A model generated the notes under the pieces. It saw nothing but the letters and a program-made list of their open reading frames with translations. It had not been told where the DNA came from and searched no databases. Below, one piece after another: positions 3,726-47,555 of a stretch of 64,000 nt of DNA. Each line of letters begins with the position of its first letter. The stretch's first letter is position 1. The translations under genes were made by a program, and so were the position numbers. The DNA is from Pontibacter beigongshangensis (lineage in GTDB: Bacteria > Bacteroidota > Bacteroidia > Cytophagales > Hymenobacteraceae): the NCBI RefSeq assembly GCF_014332515.1, contig NZ_VFSD01000018.1, forward strand, positions 1 through 64,000. The letters run 5' to 3'.

Positions 3726-3749
3726 GAAGCCGCCTCTGTTGTCAGCAAC

Positions 3750-3781
3750 GCCTCTGGAAGGCTGTTTTCATTCGAATAATT
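3750..3781 (-). repeat. Repeat A copy 2
   Basis: Reverse-oriented: CCTCTGGAAGGCTGTTTTC then ATTCGAATAATT. It forms a same-orientation pair with the copy at 3918-3948. Confidence 0.7.
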
Positions 3782-3900
3782 GCTGGTTGCTAGTTGTTGA
3801 TTGTTAAATTGTTAGATGGTTTAATGGTTGGTTTGAAGATGAACCGGATAACACCAATCAACTCTCAACTCAATAGAAGTCTACCATCTAAAATCTAGCA
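3782..3900 (+). repeat. Heptamer/octamer tandem tract (types F and B)
   Basis: Between two repeat-A copies. It starts with 7-bp units such as TGCTGGT and TGCTAGT, passes into 8-bp units such as ATTGTTAG and ATGGTTTA, and ends with the TCTAGCATCTA-type words of tract B. No coding potential is seen. Confidence 0.55.
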
Positions 3901-3917
3901 TCTATTGTCTAAGAGAG

Positions 3918-3948
3918 TCTCCAGAAGGCCATTTTCATTAGAATAATT
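3918..3948 (-). repeat. Repeat A copy 3
   Basis: Reverse-oriented: CTCCAGAAGGCCATTTTC then ATTAGAATAATT. The words just upstream are B-type heptamers, as next to the copy at 26078. Confidence 0.75.
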
Positions 3949-3968
3949 ACGACGCATCAGGCATTTAA

Positions 3969-4010
3969 AAAGAGGCTGATCCATTTCGATGGGTTAGCCT
4001 CTTTTTTGTT
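3969..4010 (+). terminator. Intrinsic terminator downstream of gltX
   Basis: AAAGAGGCTGATCC pairs with GGGTTAGCCTCTTT (two G-U pairs) around an 8-base loop, followed by a T run. It would end gltX transcription on the plus strand. It lies about 245 bases past the stop codon, with two repeat-A copies in between. Confidence 0.7.
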
Positions 4011-4187
4011 TCTGCAAATAGCCTTGCAAAGTAGCCTCCGCCGCCATTTGCAACTATTTCCTGAATTCGCCTTATACATGTGTTTAAGAAACAGACGTTA
4101 GGTAACCAGGAGGCAGCGAGACAATTAGTAGCAGGACGAGCGGCAGGCCACTGCTACTATGCTTGTGTCTCTTTAAAAACTAAAACT

Positions 4188-5505: not shown

Positions 5506-5570
5506 TTTAGATGCTAGATTTTTGTCTGAATCAGAATTTACAGAATTAAAGAATGTTCAGAATATTTTAA
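5506..5570 (+). repeat. Tract B word followed by GAAT-phased motif C
   Basis: TTTAGATGCTAGATT (B word) runs into TTTGTCTGAATCAGAATTTA (C), then further GAAT words spaced 8-9 bases apart. The same C motif recurs at 43673 and 58357, and inverted at 29563. Confidence 0.65.
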
Positions 5571-5607: not shown

Positions 5608-5695
5608 TAGCTAGTCAAAGCCATCTCCAAAATCGACCATTTAACAATTAAGCCATTTATCCATATATGAATTAGCACATTAAATCATTAGCACA
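5608..5695 (-). repeat. Octamer tandem tract D
   Basis: Read on the minus strand this begins just after the GH3-like stop. It runs as about ten consecutive 8-base units, among them AATGTGCT, AATGATTT, AATGGCTT and GATGGCTT. It shares unit order with the tracts at 25906-25985 and 43797-43876. Confidence 0.7.
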
Positions 5696-7216
5696 TTAAC
5701 CAAGTCCATTCACCTCCAGTATCTCCTCCAGGTACTCGCGGGTGTTGGCGAGGCGGGGCACTTTGTTCTGGCCGCCCAGTTTGCCTTTGTGGCTAAGCCA
5801 ATTGGTGAAGGTGCCTTGTGGGGCAGCATGTATGATGGGAGCCACCAGTGCAATGTCTTTGTGGCGTTTGGCATCGTAATCGGAGTTGATCTCGCGGAGG
5901 GAGTCGTCGAGCACCTGCTTGAATGTTTCCAGATTGTTGGGCTCTTTTTCGAATTCGATGATCCACTCGTGCCCGCCGCGTTTGCCGCTCTCCATATAAA
6001 CAGGAGCTGCCGTGAAGTTGGTAATAATGGCACCGGTGGCATCGCAGGCTTTGGTAATGGCTACCTCAGCATTTTCTACAATCACCTCTTCGCCAAAAGC
6101 ATTGATAAAGTGCTTGGTACGGCCGGAAATTTTGATGCGGTACGGGTTCAGGTTGGTGAACTTCACCGTATCGCCGATTTTGTAGCGCCACAGGCCGGCA
6201 TTGGTCGAAATCACCAGAGCATAGTTTTTGCCAAGCTCCACCTGGTCGAGCGTAAGCACTGTAGGGTGTTCCTCTTCGAACTGATCCATGGGGATGAACT
6301 CGTAGTACACGCCGTAGTCCAGCATAAGCAGCATTTCGTCTTCGGTACCAGCCTGGTCCTGTATCCCGAAAAAGCCTTCGGAGGCATTGTACACCTCCAG
6401 GTAATTCATTTTATCAGAAGGAATAATCTCCTTGAACAGCTGCCGGTAAGGGCCAAAGGCTACAGCCCCGTGTGTGAACAACTCCAGATTGGGCCACACT
6501 TCCAGAATGTTCTGCTTACCGGTTGTTTCGAGAATTCGCTTCAGGAGCACATAGGTCCAGGTCGGCACCCCCGACATGCTGGTGACGTTTTCCTGCACCG
6601 TGAGCTCCACCATCTTGGCAATCTTTTCTTCCCAGTTGTCCATGAGCGCTACTTTTAGCGGAGGGGTTCGCATGGCCTCGGCCCAGATAGGCAGGTTCTG
6701 CATGATCACCGCCGACACGTCGCCGCAAGAGGTTTTGGCATTGAGTTCGTTGGGCCGGTGGCTCCCTCCTATCGAGAGGCCTTTGCCGGAGAACAGCTTG
6801 GTTTCAGGATAAAGGTTTACGTAGATGGAGAGCATGTCTTTGCCGCCTTTGTAGTGACACTCCTCCAGGGCCTCGGGGCTTACAGGTATAAATTTGCTGC
6901 GGGCATTGGTCGTGCCAGACGATTTGGCGAACCACTCAATATCGCTGGGCCATAGAATGTTCTGCTCGCCCTTCATGACCCGCTCTATGTGCGGAAACAG
7001 GTCTTCGTAAGTAGATACCGGCACCCGCTCCTGAAACTCTCTTACAGACTTAATGTCTTTGTAACCGTATTTCTTGCCCCACTCTGTGTCTTTGGCCGTG
7101 CTGATCAGGTTCTGAAACAATTCCTGCTGCACATCGTGCGGGTACTTCCGAAACAGATCAATCTGATGGATCCGCTTCTTCATTACCCACGTCACTATTG
7201 AGTTTATTATTTCCAC
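5696..7216 (-). CDS. GH3 auxin-responsive promoter family protein (acyl-adenylating enzyme)
   Basis: 506-residue member of the GH3 family, which belongs to the adenylate-forming superfamily and in plants joins acyl acids to amino acids. Visible motifs are the ATP-binding loop SSGTTNARSKFIPVSPEA near residues 94-111, the YNASEGFFGIQ segment near 280, and a hinge-like KISGRTKHFINAFGEEV near 365. These match the three adenylation motifs of the family. The frame starts with GTG at 7216; an ATG 11 codons in (7183) is the alternative. I prefer GTG because homologues, as I recall them, keep the N-terminal helix. The substrate in Bacteroidota is unknown. It is single, with no obvious partner gene. 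Confidence 0.85.
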   Translation of the reverse strand: MEIINSIVTWVMKKRIHQIDLFRKYPHDVQQELFQNLISTAKDTEWGKKYGYKDIKSVREFQERVPVSTYEDLFPHIERVMKGEQNILWPSDIEWFAKSSGTTNARSKFIPVSPEALEECHYKGGKDMLSIYVNLYPETKLFSGKGLSIGGSHRPNELNAKTSCGDVSAVIMQNLPIWAEAMRTPPLKVALMDNWEEKIAKMVELTVQENVTSMSGVPTWTYVLLKRILETTGKQNILEVWPNLELFTHGAVAFGPYRQLFKEIIPSDKMNYLEVYNASEGFFGIQDQAGTEDEMLLMLDYGVYYEFIPMDQFEEEHPTVLTLDQVELGKNYALVISTNAGLWRYKIGDTVKFTNLNPYRIKISGRTKHFINAFGEEVIVENAEVAITKACDATGAIITNFTAAPVYMESGKRGGHEWIIEFEKEPNNLETFKQVLDDSLREINSDYDAKRHKDIALVAPIIHAAPQGTFTNWLSHKGKLGGQNKVPRLANTREYLEEILEVNGLG

Positions 7217-12104: not shown

Positions 12105-13934
12105 TTACTGAGTAAGGTTGTCGCCACGGAGGTTGCGGAAACGCTTGCGGGCCTCGGCCACATAAATGCTCCCCTGGTGCTTTACCAGCAGGTCGTTGTA
12201 GAGTTGCATGGCCTTTTCTGAGTCTTTGAGGTTTTCCTCGTAGATAAAAGCCATTCTGTACAGGGCATCGTCGCTCAGGATATCGATCTGCGGGTTGCTC
12301 ACAATCTTATCTAGGTTGGCTAGGGCCTGCTCAAAGTTCCCCATCCGCTCATACAGGTTAGCCTTCTGAAAATAGATCTCGTCCGTCAGGCTATGTCCCC
12401 TGAATTTTTCCAGCATGGCATCCAGCCGGGTGTTTGCCTCTTCCAGCTTGTTCTGGAACACGAGCAGTTCAATAGCGGCGTATTCTTCCATGGCTACGGT
12501 AGAGGTATCGAGTCCGGTGTTGTCGGTAATGAGCAGGCTCAGCTCCATGGCATCGTTGGCAATTTCGCGGCTAGTGGCCAGTTTCAGGATGTCGAGGTGG
12601 GCCTGGGCCAGCTCAAAGTCGCCTTTGTAGTAGTTCAGGCGGGCATTTCGCAGCTTTGCCTCGTGGCCTATGCTCGTCTCCTTATGCGATTTCTCCACCT
12701 GCGAATACAGCAGCGTAGCCTCCCACGGCTCCCCCTTCAGGAGGTAAATATCGCCCAGGGTCAGCTTACACTCCGCTACCAGGTTGGGGTTGGCGCGTGG
12801 CATGGCGATGGCCTCCTGCAGCAGGGCAATGGCTTTGTCTTTTTCGTCGAGGTGTAAGGCGTAGAGGCTGGCCATGTGCGGCAGCACCTCCACCGAGTTG
12901 GTGTTCCGGCCTACCTCTGTCAGCAGCGCCTCATACTCCGTTATCAGGCTCCGGATTTTGCCCAGATCTACCGGAAACGTGTTCTCAACCTGCTCCTCGC
13001 GGGCATTGATCAGCCGCTGCCGCGCCATAAAGTAGTACGGCCCATCCGGATATTCCTTCACCATGTACTCGTAGGCTTCTATGGCGCCTTCGTAGTCTTT
13101 GTTTTCAGCACTGATGGTGCCTAGCTCCATCACGCGGGTGCCGCCGCTGCGGGTGCGCTTGTCTACAGAGCGGGCCTGCAGCAGGGCGCTATAAAAATCT
13201 TTCCGCTGTATGTAGAGCCATATCAGCAGTTCGTTGTAAGAGAGCTTATCGGGCTCCAGCTGCACCTTGGTCAGCAGTTCTTTCTCCAGCAGGTCGAACC
13301 CTTTGTCGTCGCGGAGGCTGTTCTGCAGCATGTTCTGCACATAGCCCAGTTCCTGCTCATTTTCCTGCAGCAGTTGCAGTGCCTCCTGTATCAGTGGCTC
13401 ATTTTTCTGGCGATGGGTGTAGAGCGCGATCAGCTGACGGTTGTATTCCATTGGGTTTTTGCTGAGTTCCCGGCCCCGCAGGTAGGTTTTCTCGGCATAG
13501 TCGAACAGGCCGTGCTGCATAAAAATACTGGCAACAGCTATTACCTCCCCCTGGCTCAGGTTGCCGATCAGCTTATCGTAGTGCTTCTCGGCCGCCGCCT
13601 TATCTCCTGACTCCTGGTACACAATGCCCAGGTCCACGGCATAGGCCAGGGAGTTGGCGGAGCGTTTCATGGTTTTCTTCACCAGTTTCTCCGCCTCCTT
13701 GTAGTTGCGCTGTGCCAGCAGGGTTTTCAGGTAATCGGGGTACACCACGTGGAACAGGCGCTGGTCGTCTATCAGTTTGGCAAAAAGGTTCTCTGCCTTC
13801 TCCAGGTCGCCCTTGCTCAGGTATTCCCGCGCCAGCTCCACCTCCTGCTGCTTCGACTGGGCAGCCAGGTTGGCAGGCGCCAGCAACAGCAGTACCAGCG
13901 ACAGTAGCAGGCTTGAAAAAATTCGTGTCCACAT
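12105..13934 (-). CDS. Secreted tetratricopeptide-repeat protein
   Basis: 609 residues with an N-terminal signal peptide (hydrophobic LLLSLVLLLLAPANLAAQ ending near residue 25). The rest is helical repeats: TPR-like units are visible from residue 30 (AREYLSKGDLEKAENLFAKL) to the end (MAFIYEENLKDSEKAMQLYNDLL). No catalytic motif is seen. It is predicted periplasmic or outer-membrane associated and probably a scaffold. It converges with the microprotein gene with a three-base gap. The function cannot be narrowed from sequence. Confidence 0.85.
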   Translation of the reverse strand: MWTRIFSSLLLSLVLLLLAPANLAAQSKQQEVELAREYLSKGDLEKAENLFAKLIDDQRLFHVVYPDYLKTLLAQRNYKEAEKLVKKTMKRSANSLAYAVDLGIVYQESGDKAAAEKHYDKLIGNLSQGEVIAVASIFMQHGLFDYAEKTYLRGRELSKNPMEYNRQLIALYTHRQKNEPLIQEALQLLQENEQELGYVQNMLQNSLRDDKGFDLLEKELLTKVQLEPDKLSYNELLIWLYIQRKDFYSALLQARSVDKRTRSGGTRVMELGTISAENKDYEGAIEAYEYMVKEYPDGPYYFMARQRLINAREEQVENTFPVDLGKIRSLITEYEALLTEVGRNTNSVEVLPHMASLYALHLDEKDKAIALLQEAIAMPRANPNLVAECKLTLGDIYLLKGEPWEATLLYSQVEKSHKETSIGHEAKLRNARLNYYKGDFELAQAHLDILKLATSREIANDAMELSLLITDNTGLDTSTVAMEEYAAIELLVFQNKLEEANTRLDAMLEKFRGHSLTDEIYFQKANLYERMGNFEQALANLDKIVSNPQIDILSDDALYRMAFIYEENLKDSEKAMQLYNDLLVKHQGSIYVAEARKRFRNLRGDNLTQ

Positions 13935-20995: not shown

Positions 20996-22837
20996 TTACA
21001 TAAAGTACTTCAGCCGCACTACTTCTTTCTCGTTCAGGAAACGCCAGTTGCCGCGTGGCAGGTCTTTTTTAGTAAGACCGGCATACTGCACCCTGTCCAG
21101 CGTTACTACATCGTAGCCCAGGTGCTCAAAAATGCGGCGCACAATACGGTTACGCCCGATATGAATTTCAACGCCTAAGAACCTGTTGGTGTCTCCAATC
21201 AGCGCCAGGTCATCTACATCGGCCTTGCCGTCTTCCAGCTCCAGCCCTTCGGCAATTTGCTTGAAGTGTTCTTTGGTAATGGGCTTGTCGAGCTCTACCT
21301 GGTATATCTTCTTGATGTCGTTGGAGGGGTGTGTCAGTTTCTGGGCCAGTTCTCCGTCATTGGTGAACAGCAGCAGGCCTGTAGTGTTACGGTCTAAGCG
21401 GCCTACCGGGAAGATACGCTCCTTGGAGGCGTTCGCCACCAGGTCCATCACTGTCTTTCTTCCTTCCGGATCATCTGTGGTAGTGATAAAATCCTTTGGC
21501 TTGTTCAGCAGCACATACACCATCTTTTCGCGGCTCAGTAATTTTTTGCCATACTGCACGGTGTCGCCTGGGTTTACCTTATGCCCCATTTCAGTTACAA
21601 CCTCTCCGTTTACCTTGATCTCACCAGACTCGATGAGCACGTCGGCTTCGCGGCGGGAGCAAACACCAGCATTGGCGATGTAGCGGTTCAGGCGGATGGT
21701 ACCATCCTCTTCTTCGCCGGTACGGTTCGTTTTCTTGATGCGGGGATTATCTTTGTAACGGTTCAGGTTATAAGACGGGGCTTCAGCCGGTTTGTCTGGT
21801 TCATCGGCACGGCCTCTTCTGTTCCGGTCGGCAGCATTTTTACCTAAGCGTGAGTCCTTATCGAACGGTTTTTTATCGCCAAAAGAGGAGCTTCTTTCGC
21901 TTCTTTCTGGTCTTGCGCCACGGCTGTCATCACGTCTGTCGGTGTTGCCAAAAGAACGGCGTTCGCCACGGTCGGAGCCGAACGAGCGCTTTTCGCCTCC
22001 TTCTCTTCTGTCGGAGCCAAAAGAGCGGCGTTCGCCACCCTCGTTCCGGTCTGGCCTGTCGCTGTTAAATGAGCGGCGCTCCCTGCCTTCGCGGCTACCG
22101 CCATCAAACGGGCGTCTTTCGCCCCGGTTATCGTCTCTGCGGAAGCTGCTTTCGTCACGGCGCGAATCTCTTCGATCGGAACTAAAGCTTCTTCTTTCGC
22201 CACCTTCACTTCTGTCGGAGTTGAATGAACGGCGTTCGCCACCCTCTCTCCTGTCGGAGTTAAACGAACGGCGCTCGCCACCTTCACTTCTCTCAGAACC
22301 AAACGAGCGTCTTTCTGTGCCTTCTCGGTTACCTGCTCCAAACGGTTTTCTGTCGCCTTCGCGCCTGTCGGAGTTAAAGTTTCTTCGCTCGCCGCCTTCT
22401 CTTCTGTCGGAGCCAAAAGGTTTTCTGTCGCCACCTTCGCGCCGATCGGTGCCATATGGTTTTCTTTCACCGCTCTCGCGGTTACCGGCTCCAAAGGGGC
22501 GTCTTTCGGTTCTTTCGCCGCTGCCACCTGCTGGCCTCCTGTCGTCTCTGCGGAAGCCGCCTTCTCCTCTGCCACCCTCTCTTCTATCAGCGTTAAACGG
22601 ACGACGTTCGCCACCTTCTCTCCTGTCTGAACCGAATGAGCGTCTTTCGCCTCCCTCTCTTCTGTCGGAGCCAAAAGAACGGCGCTCGCTGCTATCCGGA
22701 CGGCCTTCTTTGTCTCTTCTGTTAAAAATTTTCTTTTCTCCTCTGTCGTCAGATGGTTTGTTGAAGTTTCGTCTTTCAGAACCTCTTTCGCCTGCGCCGC
22801 CGCTATTGCGGTCAGGTCTTTCGTTATCTCTTGCCAT
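20996..22837 (-). CDS. RluB/RsuA-type pseudouridine synthase with long repetitive Arg-rich N-terminus
   Basis: 613 residues. The C-terminal ~240 form a normal enzyme: an S4 RNA-binding domain (IRLNRYIANAGVCSRREAD near 375) and a RsuA/RluB catalytic domain with GRLDRNTTGLLLFTNDGE, catalytic Asp near 482. It should modify rRNA, probably 23S. The N-terminal ~370 residues are a disordered region made of about 17 imperfect 13-residue repeats of the form ERRSFGSDRREGG, with variants such as ERKPYGTDRREGG. The repeats are rich in Arg, Asp, Gly, Ser and Phe. Extended N-termini of this kind occur in Bacteroidota homologues, but the length here is striking. It is likely an RNA-binding or condensate-forming tail; this is inference. 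Confidence 0.92.
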   Translation of the reverse strand: MARDNERPDRNSGGAGERGSERRNFNKPSDDRGEKKIFNRRDKEGRPDSSERRSFGSDRREGGERRSFGSDRREGGERRPFNADRREGGRGEGGFRRDDRRPAGGSGERTERRPFGAGNRESGERKPYGTDRREGGDRKPFGSDRREGGERRNFNSDRREGDRKPFGAGNREGTERRSFGSERSEGGERRSFNSDRREGGERRSFNSDRSEGGERRSFSSDRRDSRRDESSFRRDDNRGERRPFDGGSREGRERRSFNSDRPDRNEGGERRSFGSDRREGGEKRSFGSDRGERRSFGNTDRRDDSRGARPERSERSSSFGDKKPFDKDSRLGKNAADRNRRGRADEPDKPAEAPSYNLNRYKDNPRIKKTNRTGEEEDGTIRLNRYIANAGVCSRREADVLIESGEIKVNGEVVTEMGHKVNPGDTVQYGKKLLSREKMVYVLLNKPKDFITTTDDPEGRKTVMDLVANASKERIFPVGRLDRNTTGLLLFTNDGELAQKLTHPSNDIKKIYQVELDKPITKEHFKQIAEGLELEDGKADVDDLALIGDTNRFLGVEIHIGRNRIVRRIFEHLGYDVVTLDRVQYAGLTKKDLPRGNWRFLNEKEVVRLKYFM

Positions 22838-25423: not shown

Positions 25424-25900
25424 CTAAAAGCTGAGCATATGGATAGCCGCTGCAGCTGCCTCGATGCCTTTGTTGCCGTGCTTGCCGCCCGCCCTGTCCA
25501 GGGCCTGCTCCAGGTTGTTGGTGGTAACCAGCCCAAACGATACCGGCTTGTTGTACTTGAGCGAGACGGTGGTAAGGCCGTTGGCTACCGCATGGTTTAT
25601 GTAATCGTCGTGCTTGGTGTCGCCCTTTATTACCACACCCAAGGCGATCACGGCATCAATGTCTTCGTTCTGCGCCAGAAACTGCGCGCCCAACGTGAGC
25701 TCGAAACTACCAGGCACGGTATTGCGGAAGATGTTCTCTTTCTGCGCTCCATGCTGCAGCAGCGTTTCTATGGCTCCGGCACAAAGCGCATCGGTAATAT
25801 CGGTGTGCCACTCAGCTACCACAATACCGAATTTCTTATCAGAGATATCTGCAAAGCTCTGTTTGCTGTACTCGTTGAGGTTCTTTAGAGAAGTGGCCAT
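25424..25900 (-). CDS. ribH: 6,7-dimethyl-8-ribityllumazine synthase
   Basis: 158-residue enzyme that condenses 5-amino-6-ribitylamino-uracil with dihydroxybutanone phosphate in riboflavin synthesis. Signatures are AEWHTDITDALCAGA near 29-43, VPGSFELTLGAQ near 62, and VIKGDTKHDDYI near 88-99 with the active-site His. Normal length; assembles as a pentamer or 60-mer shell. Octamer tract D begins five bases upstream of the ATG, so the normal leader is displaced or made of repeat. Other rib genes are not in the window. Confidence 0.95.
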   Translation of the reverse strand: MATSLKNLNEYSKQSFADISDKKFGIVVAEWHTDITDALCAGAIETLLQHGAQKENIFRNTVPGSFELTLGAQFLAQNEDIDAVIALGVVIKGDTKHDDYINHAVANGLTTVSLKYNKPVSFGLVTTNNLEQALDRAGGKHGNKGIEAAAAAIHMLSF

Positions 25901-25905
25901 AATTT

Positions 25906-25985
25906 AATGTGCTAATGGTTTAATGTGCTAATTTAGTAATTTGAAAATTTGGAGATGGGAAGATTTGGAGATGAATGAATAGAGC
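25906..25985 (+). repeat. Octamer tandem tract D, best copy
   Basis: Ten consecutive 8-base units with no slippage: AATGTGCT, AATGGTTT, AATGTGCT, AATTTAGT, AATTTGAA, AATTTGGA, GATGGGAA, GATTTGGA, GATGAATG, AATAGAGC. It begins five bases before the ribH ATG (on the other strand). B-type heptamers and repeat A copy 10 follow downstream, filling the spacer to ribH's upstream neighbour. Confidence 0.85.
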
Positions 25986-26077
25986 AAGCTTAAGGAAAAA
26001 GTCTAATCTTCAATCATGACTCTTAACTTAATCGAAAGTCTATCATCCAATATCCGGCATCTAACCTCTTAAAGAAG

Positions 26078-26108
26078 TCTCTGGAGGGCCGTTTTCATTA
26101 GAATAATT
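26078..26108 (-). repeat. Repeat A copy 10
   Basis: CTCTGGAGGGCCGTTTTC then ATTAGAATAATT, a near-consensus reverse copy. B-type words (TATCATCC, CCGGCATCTAA) precede it. Confidence 0.8.
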
Positions 26109-26220: not shown

Positions 26221-26260
26221 AAAAGCGCTTTTGCCTTGCGAACAAGACAAAAGCGCTTTT
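26221..26260 (-). terminator. Terminator of the TPR membrane protein gene
   Basis: AAAAGCGCTTTTGCCTTG (26221-26238) pairs with CAAGACAAAAGCGCTTTT (26243-26260) around a CGAA loop with one G-U pair. On the minus strand it is followed by TTTATTTTG. It lies 32 bases past the stop. Confidence 0.85.
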
Positions 26261-26291
26261 TATATTCTCTGGCGCAAAGCCAAAAGTTATT

Positions 26292-29421: not shown

Positions 29422-29429
29422 TTTTTGCT

Positions 29430-29635
29430 AATTTTGAATTTTGAATGAGTGGATGAGTGAATGAAATGCAGCAGGAGGAGCAGCAAATCAGGAGGGCCAT
29501 TTTCATTCAAATAATTCATTTTAAACATATTATCACTCTGTAAATTCTTGGGATGGGAACTCCATTTACAGATTCAGACAAAATCCATCCACTCATTCTC
29601 TCAATCACTCATCCACTCATTCAAAACTTTAAACC
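29430..29635. repeat. Repeat-filled spacer: octamer tract E arms around repeat A and motif C
   Basis: The left arm has 8-base units TGAATGAG, TGGATGAG, TGAATGAA. The right arm has the same words inverted and ends 12 bases before the DUF721 ATG. Between lie repeat A copy 11 (29488-29517, reverse) and an inverted C motif (TTTACAGATTCAGACAAAAT). The whole spacer is a loose palindrome. Confidence 0.75.
29488..29517 (-). repeat. Repeat A copy 11
   Basis: CAGGAGGGCCATTTTC then ATTCAAATAATTC, reverse orientation. GCAGCAGGAGGAGCAGC on its inner side matches the CTGCTG extension. Confidence 0.8.
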
Positions 29636-29962: not shown

Positions 29963-29967
29963 AATTT

Positions 29968-30182
29968 TAAATGAGTGACTGAGTGATTGAGTGAATATAT
30001 TCTATAGCTTGTAATTAGTGCTGCTTCAGCGGGAGCAAAAGTGCTGAGAAGGCCGTTTTCATTTAAATAATTCCGCTATCCCTCCTTCTATGAATTCCGT
30101 AAATTCTTATTCTAACCAACTTCATATTCACTCAATCACTCATCCACTCATTCAAAATTAAAAAAATCACTCATTCAAAATT
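29968..30182. repeat. Repeat-filled spacer: second tract E palindrome
   Basis: The left arm has units TGACTGAG, TGATTGAG, TGAATATA. The right arm has the inverted words and runs to five bases before the thioesterase ATG. Repeat A copy 12 lies at 30044-30073. It has the same layout as the spacer on the other side of the DUF721 gene. Confidence 0.75.
30044..30073 (-). repeat. Repeat A copy 12
   Basis: CTGAGAAGGCCGTTTTC then ATTTAAATAATTCC, reverse orientation, with GTGCTGCTTCAGC inside. Confidence 0.7.
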
Positions 30183-33543: not shown

Positions 33544-33643
33544 CAACCTTTAAAGATGCTGGACTTTAGGTTGAGTGAAGAGTTATGAGTGCCCGGCCTT
33601 TAGAAGCTGCTCTCACAATTCATTTCCAATCAGCACAGCTCAA

Positions 33644-33713
33644 CTCCAAATCTCCAAATCAACCACTTTACAGTTAAGCCATTTAACAATCAGAGATTAA
33701 CAACCAACAATCA
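33644..33713 (-). repeat. Mixed octamer/heptamer tract between repeat A copies
   Basis: On the minus strand: TGATTGT and TGGTTGT heptamers, then octamers ATTGTTAA, ATGGCTTA and ATTTGGAG (twice). It abuts repeat A copy 15. Confidence 0.6.
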
Positions 33714-43461: not shown

Positions 43462-43603
43462 ACTCCAATCCTATAAATCATCTAAATATAATATAAGTTT
43501 TAGTATTTTAAATGCCGCGATTTGAGTTTTCAGAAGAATCTGCCGAAGGAACTGTTAAGTAAGTGTATATTAATATTTTAGCCTCGCCAACCTGATCCAG
43601 GTA

Positions 43604-43637
43604 AATTATTGTAATGAAAATGGTCCTCCGGAGATTC
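43604..43637 (+). repeat. Repeat A copy 17
   Basis: AATTATTGTAATGAAAA then TGGTCCTCCGGAGA, followed by the extension TTCTGCTACTGTTACTGC and GCTCCTGATAATA. It shows the full forward order core-CTGCTG-CCTGATAATA. Confidence 0.8.
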
Positions 43638-43672: not shown

Positions 43673-43745
43673 TTTGTCTGAATCAGCATTCTCAGGAAGA
43701 TTATTGTCTGAATCAGAATTTACAGAATTAAAGAATGTTCAGAAT
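43673..43745 (+). repeat. GAAT-phased motif C
   Basis: TTTGTCTGAATCAGCATT, then a second start TTGTCTGAATCAGAATTTA and further GAAT words. It matches 5521-5563 almost base for base, and the same distal words (GTTGGTTCC, TACTTT) follow in both. Confidence 0.75.
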
Positions 43746-43796
43746 GCTTGAGTCTTAGTGCGGCCTGAAATTCGTTGGTTCCTTTATACTTTGCTA

Positions 43797-43876
43797 CTCA
43801 AAACCATTTCCAAATCTTCACATTTCCAAATTCAAAAATTAGCACATCAGCACATCAAACCATTAGCACATTAAGT
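43797..43876 (-). repeat. Octamer tandem tract D
   Basis: On the minus strand: AATGTGCT, AATGGTTT, GATGTGCT, GATGTGCT, AATTTTTG, AATTTGGA, AATGTGAA, GATTTGGA, AATGGTTT. Nine units in register, the same order as at 25906. Confidence 0.8.
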
Positions 43877-45822: not shown

Positions 45823-45882
45823 GTTTTGAGTTTTAAATGAGTGGATGAGTCATTGGGTGAATGAGTGATTGAGTGAATAATA
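45823..45882 (+). repeat. Octamer tract E, left of four-helix-bundle gene
   Basis: 8-base units GAGTGGAT, GAGTCATT, GGGTGAAT, GAGTGATT, GAGTGAAT in tandem, starting just after the ABC transporter stop. The inverted partner is at 47517-47555. Confidence 0.75.
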
Positions 45883-47516: not shown

Positions 47517-47555
47517 AATTCACTCATCCACTCAATCACTCATTCACAATTCTAA
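47517..47555 (-). repeat. Octamer tract E, right of the insertion sequence
   Basis: The inverted partner of 45823-45882: minus-strand units TGAATGAG, TGATTGAG, TGGATGAG, TGAATTTT. It lies between the IS and the SLC13 permease stop. Confidence 0.75.

Follow-up and report, generated by a model that had tools for sequence, protein, structure and literature searches.

An octamer array upstream of ribH in Pontibacter beigongshangensis is one copy of an ordered, dispersed family of intergenic repeats

Directly upstream of ribH, in the window (the whole stretch of 64,000 nucleotides analyzed), the spacer is built of octamers, which raises the question of what kind of sequence such an array is and what it does in front of a conserved housekeeping gene. 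Read from position 25906, the units are AATGTGCT, AATGGTTT, AATGTGCT, AATTTAGT, AATTTGAA, AATTTGGA, GATGGGAA, GATTTGGA, GATGAATG and AATAGAGC, the last occupying 25978–25985. A preliminary description had reported ten octamers in strict register, starting five bases from the ribH ATG; both points were confirmed, as all ten units begin with RAT (AAT or GAT) without a shift of register, and bases 25901–25905 separate them from the ATG (25898–25900). Units of class A (AATGTGCT, AATGGTTT) adjoin ribH, and units of class D (AATTTGGA, GATTTGGA) lie at the far side. Identity at lag 8 over 25903–25985 was 0.573, compared with 0.308 in dinucleotide-shuffled sequence (z 5.3, reached by 0 of 500 shuffles), and rose to 0.672 at lag 16; in the same test, lags 6, 7, and 9 showed no excess within the array. 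Periodicity was also evident throughout this genome's intergenic DNA, as the preliminary description had predicted for lag 8: 62 strongly periodic 64-bp segments were found at this lag (3.2 in shuffles), together with 52 at lag 7 (2.7 in shuffles). In bulk intergenic autocorrelation, lag 8 was raised (z 7.9), but lags 6, 9, and 12 were raised as well. The features of the window are collected in Table 1.

Table 1. Repeat arrays and associated features in the window.
Feature	Position	Strand	Basis or remark
Composite of M1, E/D array, 7-bp arrays, and M1	3742–3990 (approximate limits)	+	Site empty in G427 (3731–4159 compared)
Third array copy; first TAA doubles as stop codon of gene 5696–7216	5622–5703	-	A part common to G427
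ribH, 6,7-dimethyl-8-ribityllumazine synthase, 158 amino acids	25424–25900	-	TIGR00114, 157 bits (cut-off 84.6)
Octamer array	25906–25985	+	Direct reading; lag-8 test; cyclic 8-state HMM, path without indel
7-bp-type degenerate arrays (ACTCTTA and ATCCAATATCC types), usual D-side neighbors	26000–26069	+	Same order in other composites
M1, interspersed repeat CTCYGGAGGGCCNTTTTCATTAGAATAATT	26079–26108	+	M1 column profile
Terminator-like inverted repeat (AAAAGCGCTTTTG..CAAAAGCGCTTTT) of upstream gene; start of ribH leader region	26222–26262	.	Congener comparison, kept there
Inverted pair, second octamer family (TGAATGAG) flanking M1, stop to start	29426–29626	.	RNA fold z -4.5
Second inverted pair, TGAATGAG/ATTCACTC octamer family, flanking M1, stop to start	29964–30178	.	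RNA fold z -6.0
E/D type array	33636–33703	-	Partly retained in G427
Second array copy, upstream of ABC transporter gene	43801–43874	-	HMM; M1 at 43603–43633, same orientation

The array had been likened to the heptanucleotide STRRs of cyanobacteria. The likeness is apt, but the array is not an STRR, because its period is 8, its units are degenerate, and it belongs to a dispersed, ordered family. The 7-bp unit of STRRs is absent from the ribH array (lag 8 is raised and lag 7 is not), and where STRRs have near-perfect tandem units, unit-to-unit identity here is about 57%. Direct repeats of the heptamer TAACTGA are described from Beggiatoaceae, Cyanobacteria, and some Bacteroidetes (PMC4679880). 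STRRs and TAACTGA repeats are likewise short-period intergenic arrays, many per genome and some just upstream of starts, and the present genome also has 7-bp arrays; what sets the family apart, besides its period and degeneracy, is a fixed module order and polarity, docking at stop codons and at a second repeat, M1, and the swapping of unit types between species. Long simple sequence repeats, in the summary that PMC4679880 gives of Mrazek et al. 2007, have units of 5–11 bp, heptamers being the commonest. Those described there have one unit each, whereas the arrays here, with a self-similarity of only ~55–60%, are nevertheless ordered and copied in blocks. Literature searches with sequence strings returned no paper on these repeats.

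The preliminary description had further held that the whole array behaves as a unit. This was borne out by 42 BLAST matches in its own genome with the order of units fixed. The genome comprises 5.75 Mb, of which 1.07 Mb was sampled in stretches, partly picked around matches; a cyclic 8-state HMM trained on the ribH array recognized 100 arrays in this sample, a count that, like that of M1, varies with threshold. Density was recomputed on 620 kb of tiles picked regardless of matches, which held 44 arrays, corresponding to ~70 per Mb and ~400 per genome. As a control, 3 matches were obtained in reversed sequence, compared with 20 in real tiles. The family is intergenic, none of the 100 arrays in 1.07 Mb overlapping a predicted gene by more than 25 bp. 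Three unit classes were distinguished: A (RATGTGCT, with AATGGTTT interspersed), E (GATTGTTA, AATGGTTG), and D (RATTTGGA). A units stood ahead of D units 270 times and D ahead of A twice, where unit shuffles give 136. Within the window, the claim that nearly the same ordered series recurs at two further places held for the second copy (same order, 84% identity over 73 bp) and in part for the third, in which the A units are common and the middle module differs.

This order bears on whether each array could have been born in place by local replication slippage alone, as a decayed simple-sequence repeat of the long simple sequence repeat or STRR kind. Strict period, unit-sized gains and losses, and the presence of several 7–8-bp unit types in one genome would all fit such an origin. 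Ordered A-(E)-D modules were, however, found at dozens of sites with identity up to 91%, an order that slippage could not create repeatedly, and the same exact 20-mer recurs across Bacteroidota records. The fixed A-to-D order goes beyond independent slippage and so indicates that arrays were copied as blocks; pure slippage, largely refuted by the unit-order test, is very improbable. Two observations touch on the neighborhood and possible youth of such arrays: a TGTCTGAATCAGAATTTACAGAATTAAAGAATG repeat adjoins the D side of two arrays (window 5532–5563 and 43690–43750), this part of the query also matching in many congeners, and a Bacteroidales MAG carries a perfect 24-bp higher-order repeat, (AATTTGAT AATGTGCT AATGTGCT)n, on the minus strand of locus L161 (5515–5606), perhaps a young octamer array. 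A 39-bp tandem repeat also lies at window 22196–22480, within the gene at 20996–22837 (84 and 67% matches).

Arrays were frequently part of a larger mosaic. By intergenic repeat depth, the composite order is M1, A, E, D, linker, 7-bp arrays (ACTCTTA, GTCTTGT), and M1 again. M1 is a 30-bp repeat, CTCCGGAGGGCCNTTTTCATTAGAATAATT, with sharp ends in the column profile and ~285 copies per Mb; of 325 copies in the 1.07-Mb sample, 1 lay within a gene. It is present in the sister species (genome G427) and nearly missing from three other congeners. M1 was found at the A-end of 47 of the 100 arrays, always in the same orientation, and again, in that orientation, 29–252 bp past the D-end of 45. In anatomy, BIMEs, REPs, and REPINs (PMC2817692, PMC3116915) are a closer comparison than STRRs, being intergenic multi-motif mosaics of preferred order and high copy number, with inverted pairs in some genomes; the ordered, intergenic, high-copy mosaic is found here too. 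REPs are palindromic and form a stable hairpin, whereas M1 is no stable palindrome, its RNA folding no better than shuffled sequence (z +1.3 and +0.9); in addition, no RAYT link was found, and the spacer motif is here itself a periodic array flush with codons. Six Y1-type transposase genes are present in the genome and M1 lies near two of them (loci of ~3.2 kb), which does not exceed the expectation from its density; a Y1/RAYT link gave no signal.

The A-end of the arrays is anchored either at M1 or at a stop codon. With gene starts and stops taken from a home-made caller using a simple coding score, the A-end lay -20 to 22 nt from a stop in 29 of 64 arrays, compared with 6.8 expected for random placement in the same spacers, and the D-end in 0 of 42. 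In 12 of the 29 stop-flush arrays, the stop codon is the TAA of the array's first TAATGTG, and within the sample these are the only genes with TGTG after the stop. An identical stop-codon junction was found in Hymenobacter-like genomes. At one locus, relatives retain the same stop codon whether or not they carry an array, indicating that the gene there is not truncated. One reading of these junctions is a translation relay, in which A units would act as overlapping stop and start codons (T-RATG, step 9 - 1 = 8 nt) that hand ribosomes from the stop towards the next gene. In stop-flush arrays, 78% of the A/B junctions do read TRATG, with the stop codon in register, but the share is nearly as high (68%) in M1-linked arrays with no stop ahead of them; no such chain exists in D, E, and 7-bp modules, and the ribH array is antisense to ribH, so that a relay is hardly credible.

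Strand polarity was examined for all 7- or 8-bp-periodic 56-bp segments up to 30 nt from a gene end, of any family, in four genomes. Before starts, the sense strand was C-rich (G-poor) in 40 cases and G-rich in 2; after stops, it was G-rich (C-poor) in 44 and C-rich in 3. Non-periodic gene ends showed a weaker bias before starts and nearly none after stops. Because polarity is opposite at starts and stops, arrays at the two ends of a spacer are complementary, and an inverted-repeat match was commoner between a spacer's own ends than between mismatched ends. Spacers with inverted pairs form long predicted stop-to-start RNA hairpins (z -9.2, -7.8, -6.0, -5.3, and -4.5; -1.8 in a type-swapped case). 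The second octamer family that makes up the two inverted pairs of the window (TGAATGAG/ATTCACTC) was also seen at 45836–45878 and 47518–47547. Among Hymenobacter-like genomes, loci L213–L215, L225, and the joined G383 loci L328–L333 (80868–81138) carry inverted octamer or heptamer arrays as nested palindromes, the outer arrays surrounding further inverted repeats (TGTCATTGCGAGG.., TGTCATCCTGAACGG..) with a terminator-like hairpin at the center.

Records with the same array module include Pontibacter, Rufibacter, Adhaeribacter, and Hymenobacter among those named. Exact copies of the 16-mer RATGTGCTRATGTGCT numbered 53 in this genome and 0 in most congeners, while other genera within the family had as many as 55 (~0 in the reversed control). 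The first impression of a phylum-wide module was cut back, since a phylum-level sample of 296 genomes had the 16-mer in 4, compared with 76 of 200 in the family. At a single site, the array type can change between species while its position is retained: an A-type inverted pair at locus L030 (2493–2661) is replaced in the sister species by a 7-bp-type pair between the same conserved stop and start, and three related Hymenobacter-like genomes (G383, G475, and G492) vary at orthologous sites in the presence and type of array. It is conceivable, though on balance unlikely, that the family maintains interchangeable boundary arrays: strand-polar, of 7–8 bp, installed exactly at stops and starts by a dedicated process, and often forming inverted-pair hairpins from stop to start. 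In such a system, the type would be replaced on both arms with the layout kept, and the array at ribH would be one of its leader modules.

Also weighed was a selfish element of the MITE kind, with the octamer arrays as its ends. A transposase supplied in trans would insert it at TA or TAA, so that stop codons are hit; inverted pairs would be its terminal repeats, single arrays decayed copies, and the ribH copy functionless. The 12 stop-codon junctions (TAA|TGTGCT) are in keeping with this, as are the inverted pairs of Hymenobacter-like genomes, which face inward and have TTAATGTGCT..AGCACATTAA as outer ends, and presence or absence between conserved flanks; like MITEs, the arrays are short, non-coding, and patchy in copy number. 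Unrelated array types (TTGTCAG, TGAATGAG, AAATGGTTGAC), however, are flush and inverted in like manner; single copies prevail in this genome, with few inverted pairs and about half of the copies joined to M1; no parent transposon was found; and the copy at ribH is conserved. Neither a transposase nor a target-site duplication nor a clean boundary of an element could be established for the array; target-site duplications were not readable at the empty sites at the divergence of the G427 and G383/G475/G492 comparisons. Taken together, we regard a MITE-like element with a functionless ribH copy as improbable.

At ribH itself, the array is missing in twelve congeners, one of which (L076) has a weak A-type array; several have short 7–8-bp CAA-type repeats at this position, immediately ahead of the ATG. 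The distance between the conserved terminator upstream and the ribH ATG is 48–149 nt in the 12 congeners and 322 nt in the present genome, consistent with an insertion into the ribH leader. A TAnnTTTG-like box lies close to the terminator in about half of the 12. The more distant congeners had suggested that the array is simply unconserved, which the sister species overturned: there, the array is identical at 64 of 69 positions without gaps, whereas third codon positions of ribH are 57% identical and the remaining spacer can hardly be aligned, a comparison that concerns mainly one locus and one sister species. With the nearest paralogue in the own-genome sample at 88% over 65 bp, orthology with the G427 array is the simpler reading. 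Across 17 comparable array loci, most were not retained like the ribH copy. Start-flush arrays may be conserved elsewhere, as a heptamer-like array (TTAGATGCTAGATTTTAGATG) near position 13306 of locus L042, nearly identical in G427, is perhaps a second conserved leader array.

The excess of conservation over third codon positions suggests that the array was put to use at ribH. The preliminary description had concluded that the array must hold or replace regulatory sequence; the array probably does matter for ribH, but replacement is not supported, as the array appears, from the leader lengths, to have extended the ribH leader rather than taken over a promoter. One way to matter would be as a repeated binding site, with a protein that polymerizes on DNA or RNA in 8-base steps reading RAT and regulating ribH and many other genes. 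The near-invariance of octamer positions 2 and 3 (A 0.96, T 0.95) and the conservation of the ribH copy could be so explained, but the same slots in relatives are filled by 7-bp arrays and other 8-bp units, copies face either way relative to genes and are chiefly found downstream of stops, and 8 bp fits no helical repeat. Rfam covariance models gave no match over the whole window at gathering score, neither to an FMN riboswitch nor to another known leader RNA. A binding site of this kind is thus decidedly improbable. The Bacteroides RNA-binding protein RbpB and FopS sRNAs were also considered and dropped, their motif being a 41-nt sRNA feature and not an octamer. The folding energy of the ribH array is 0 kcal/mol, and the leader of ribH shows no excess of structure over its shuffles.

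We therefore favor, at a probability of roughly 0.55, a modular intergenic repeat that spreads by copying and, at ribH, was recruited as an unstructured leader. In this reading, short arrays of degenerate 7- or 8-bp units would be copied from site to site, alone or in M1 mosaics, by transposition or conversion, and would settle with the A end abutting M1 or a stop or start codon. Once settled, their polarity would place the G-poor strand as sense before starts and the C-poor strand as sense after stops. Duplication or loss of whole units and point mutation within a copy would then keep the period while the units drift. The ribH copy would have entered the space between terminator and ATG before this species and G427 split, and it is presumably transcribed as part of the mRNA leader. 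There it may now serve as an unstructured, G-poor leader under constraint; this constraint probably acts on translation, most simply because the array keeps the translation start open. Because inverted-pair copies form hairpins, quite unlike an open leader, no single function can account for every copy.

For the family, these results mean that much intergenic DNA is built from a small number of short-period module types, placed with regard to strand and to codon boundaries. They offer a model, open to testing, of the way in which leaders and spacers of bacteria are rebuilt from species to species, and of how a repeat may become the conserved leader of a housekeeping gene. They also carry a warning: spacer sequence close to a start codon in this family may derive from repeats and not from an ancestral promoter.
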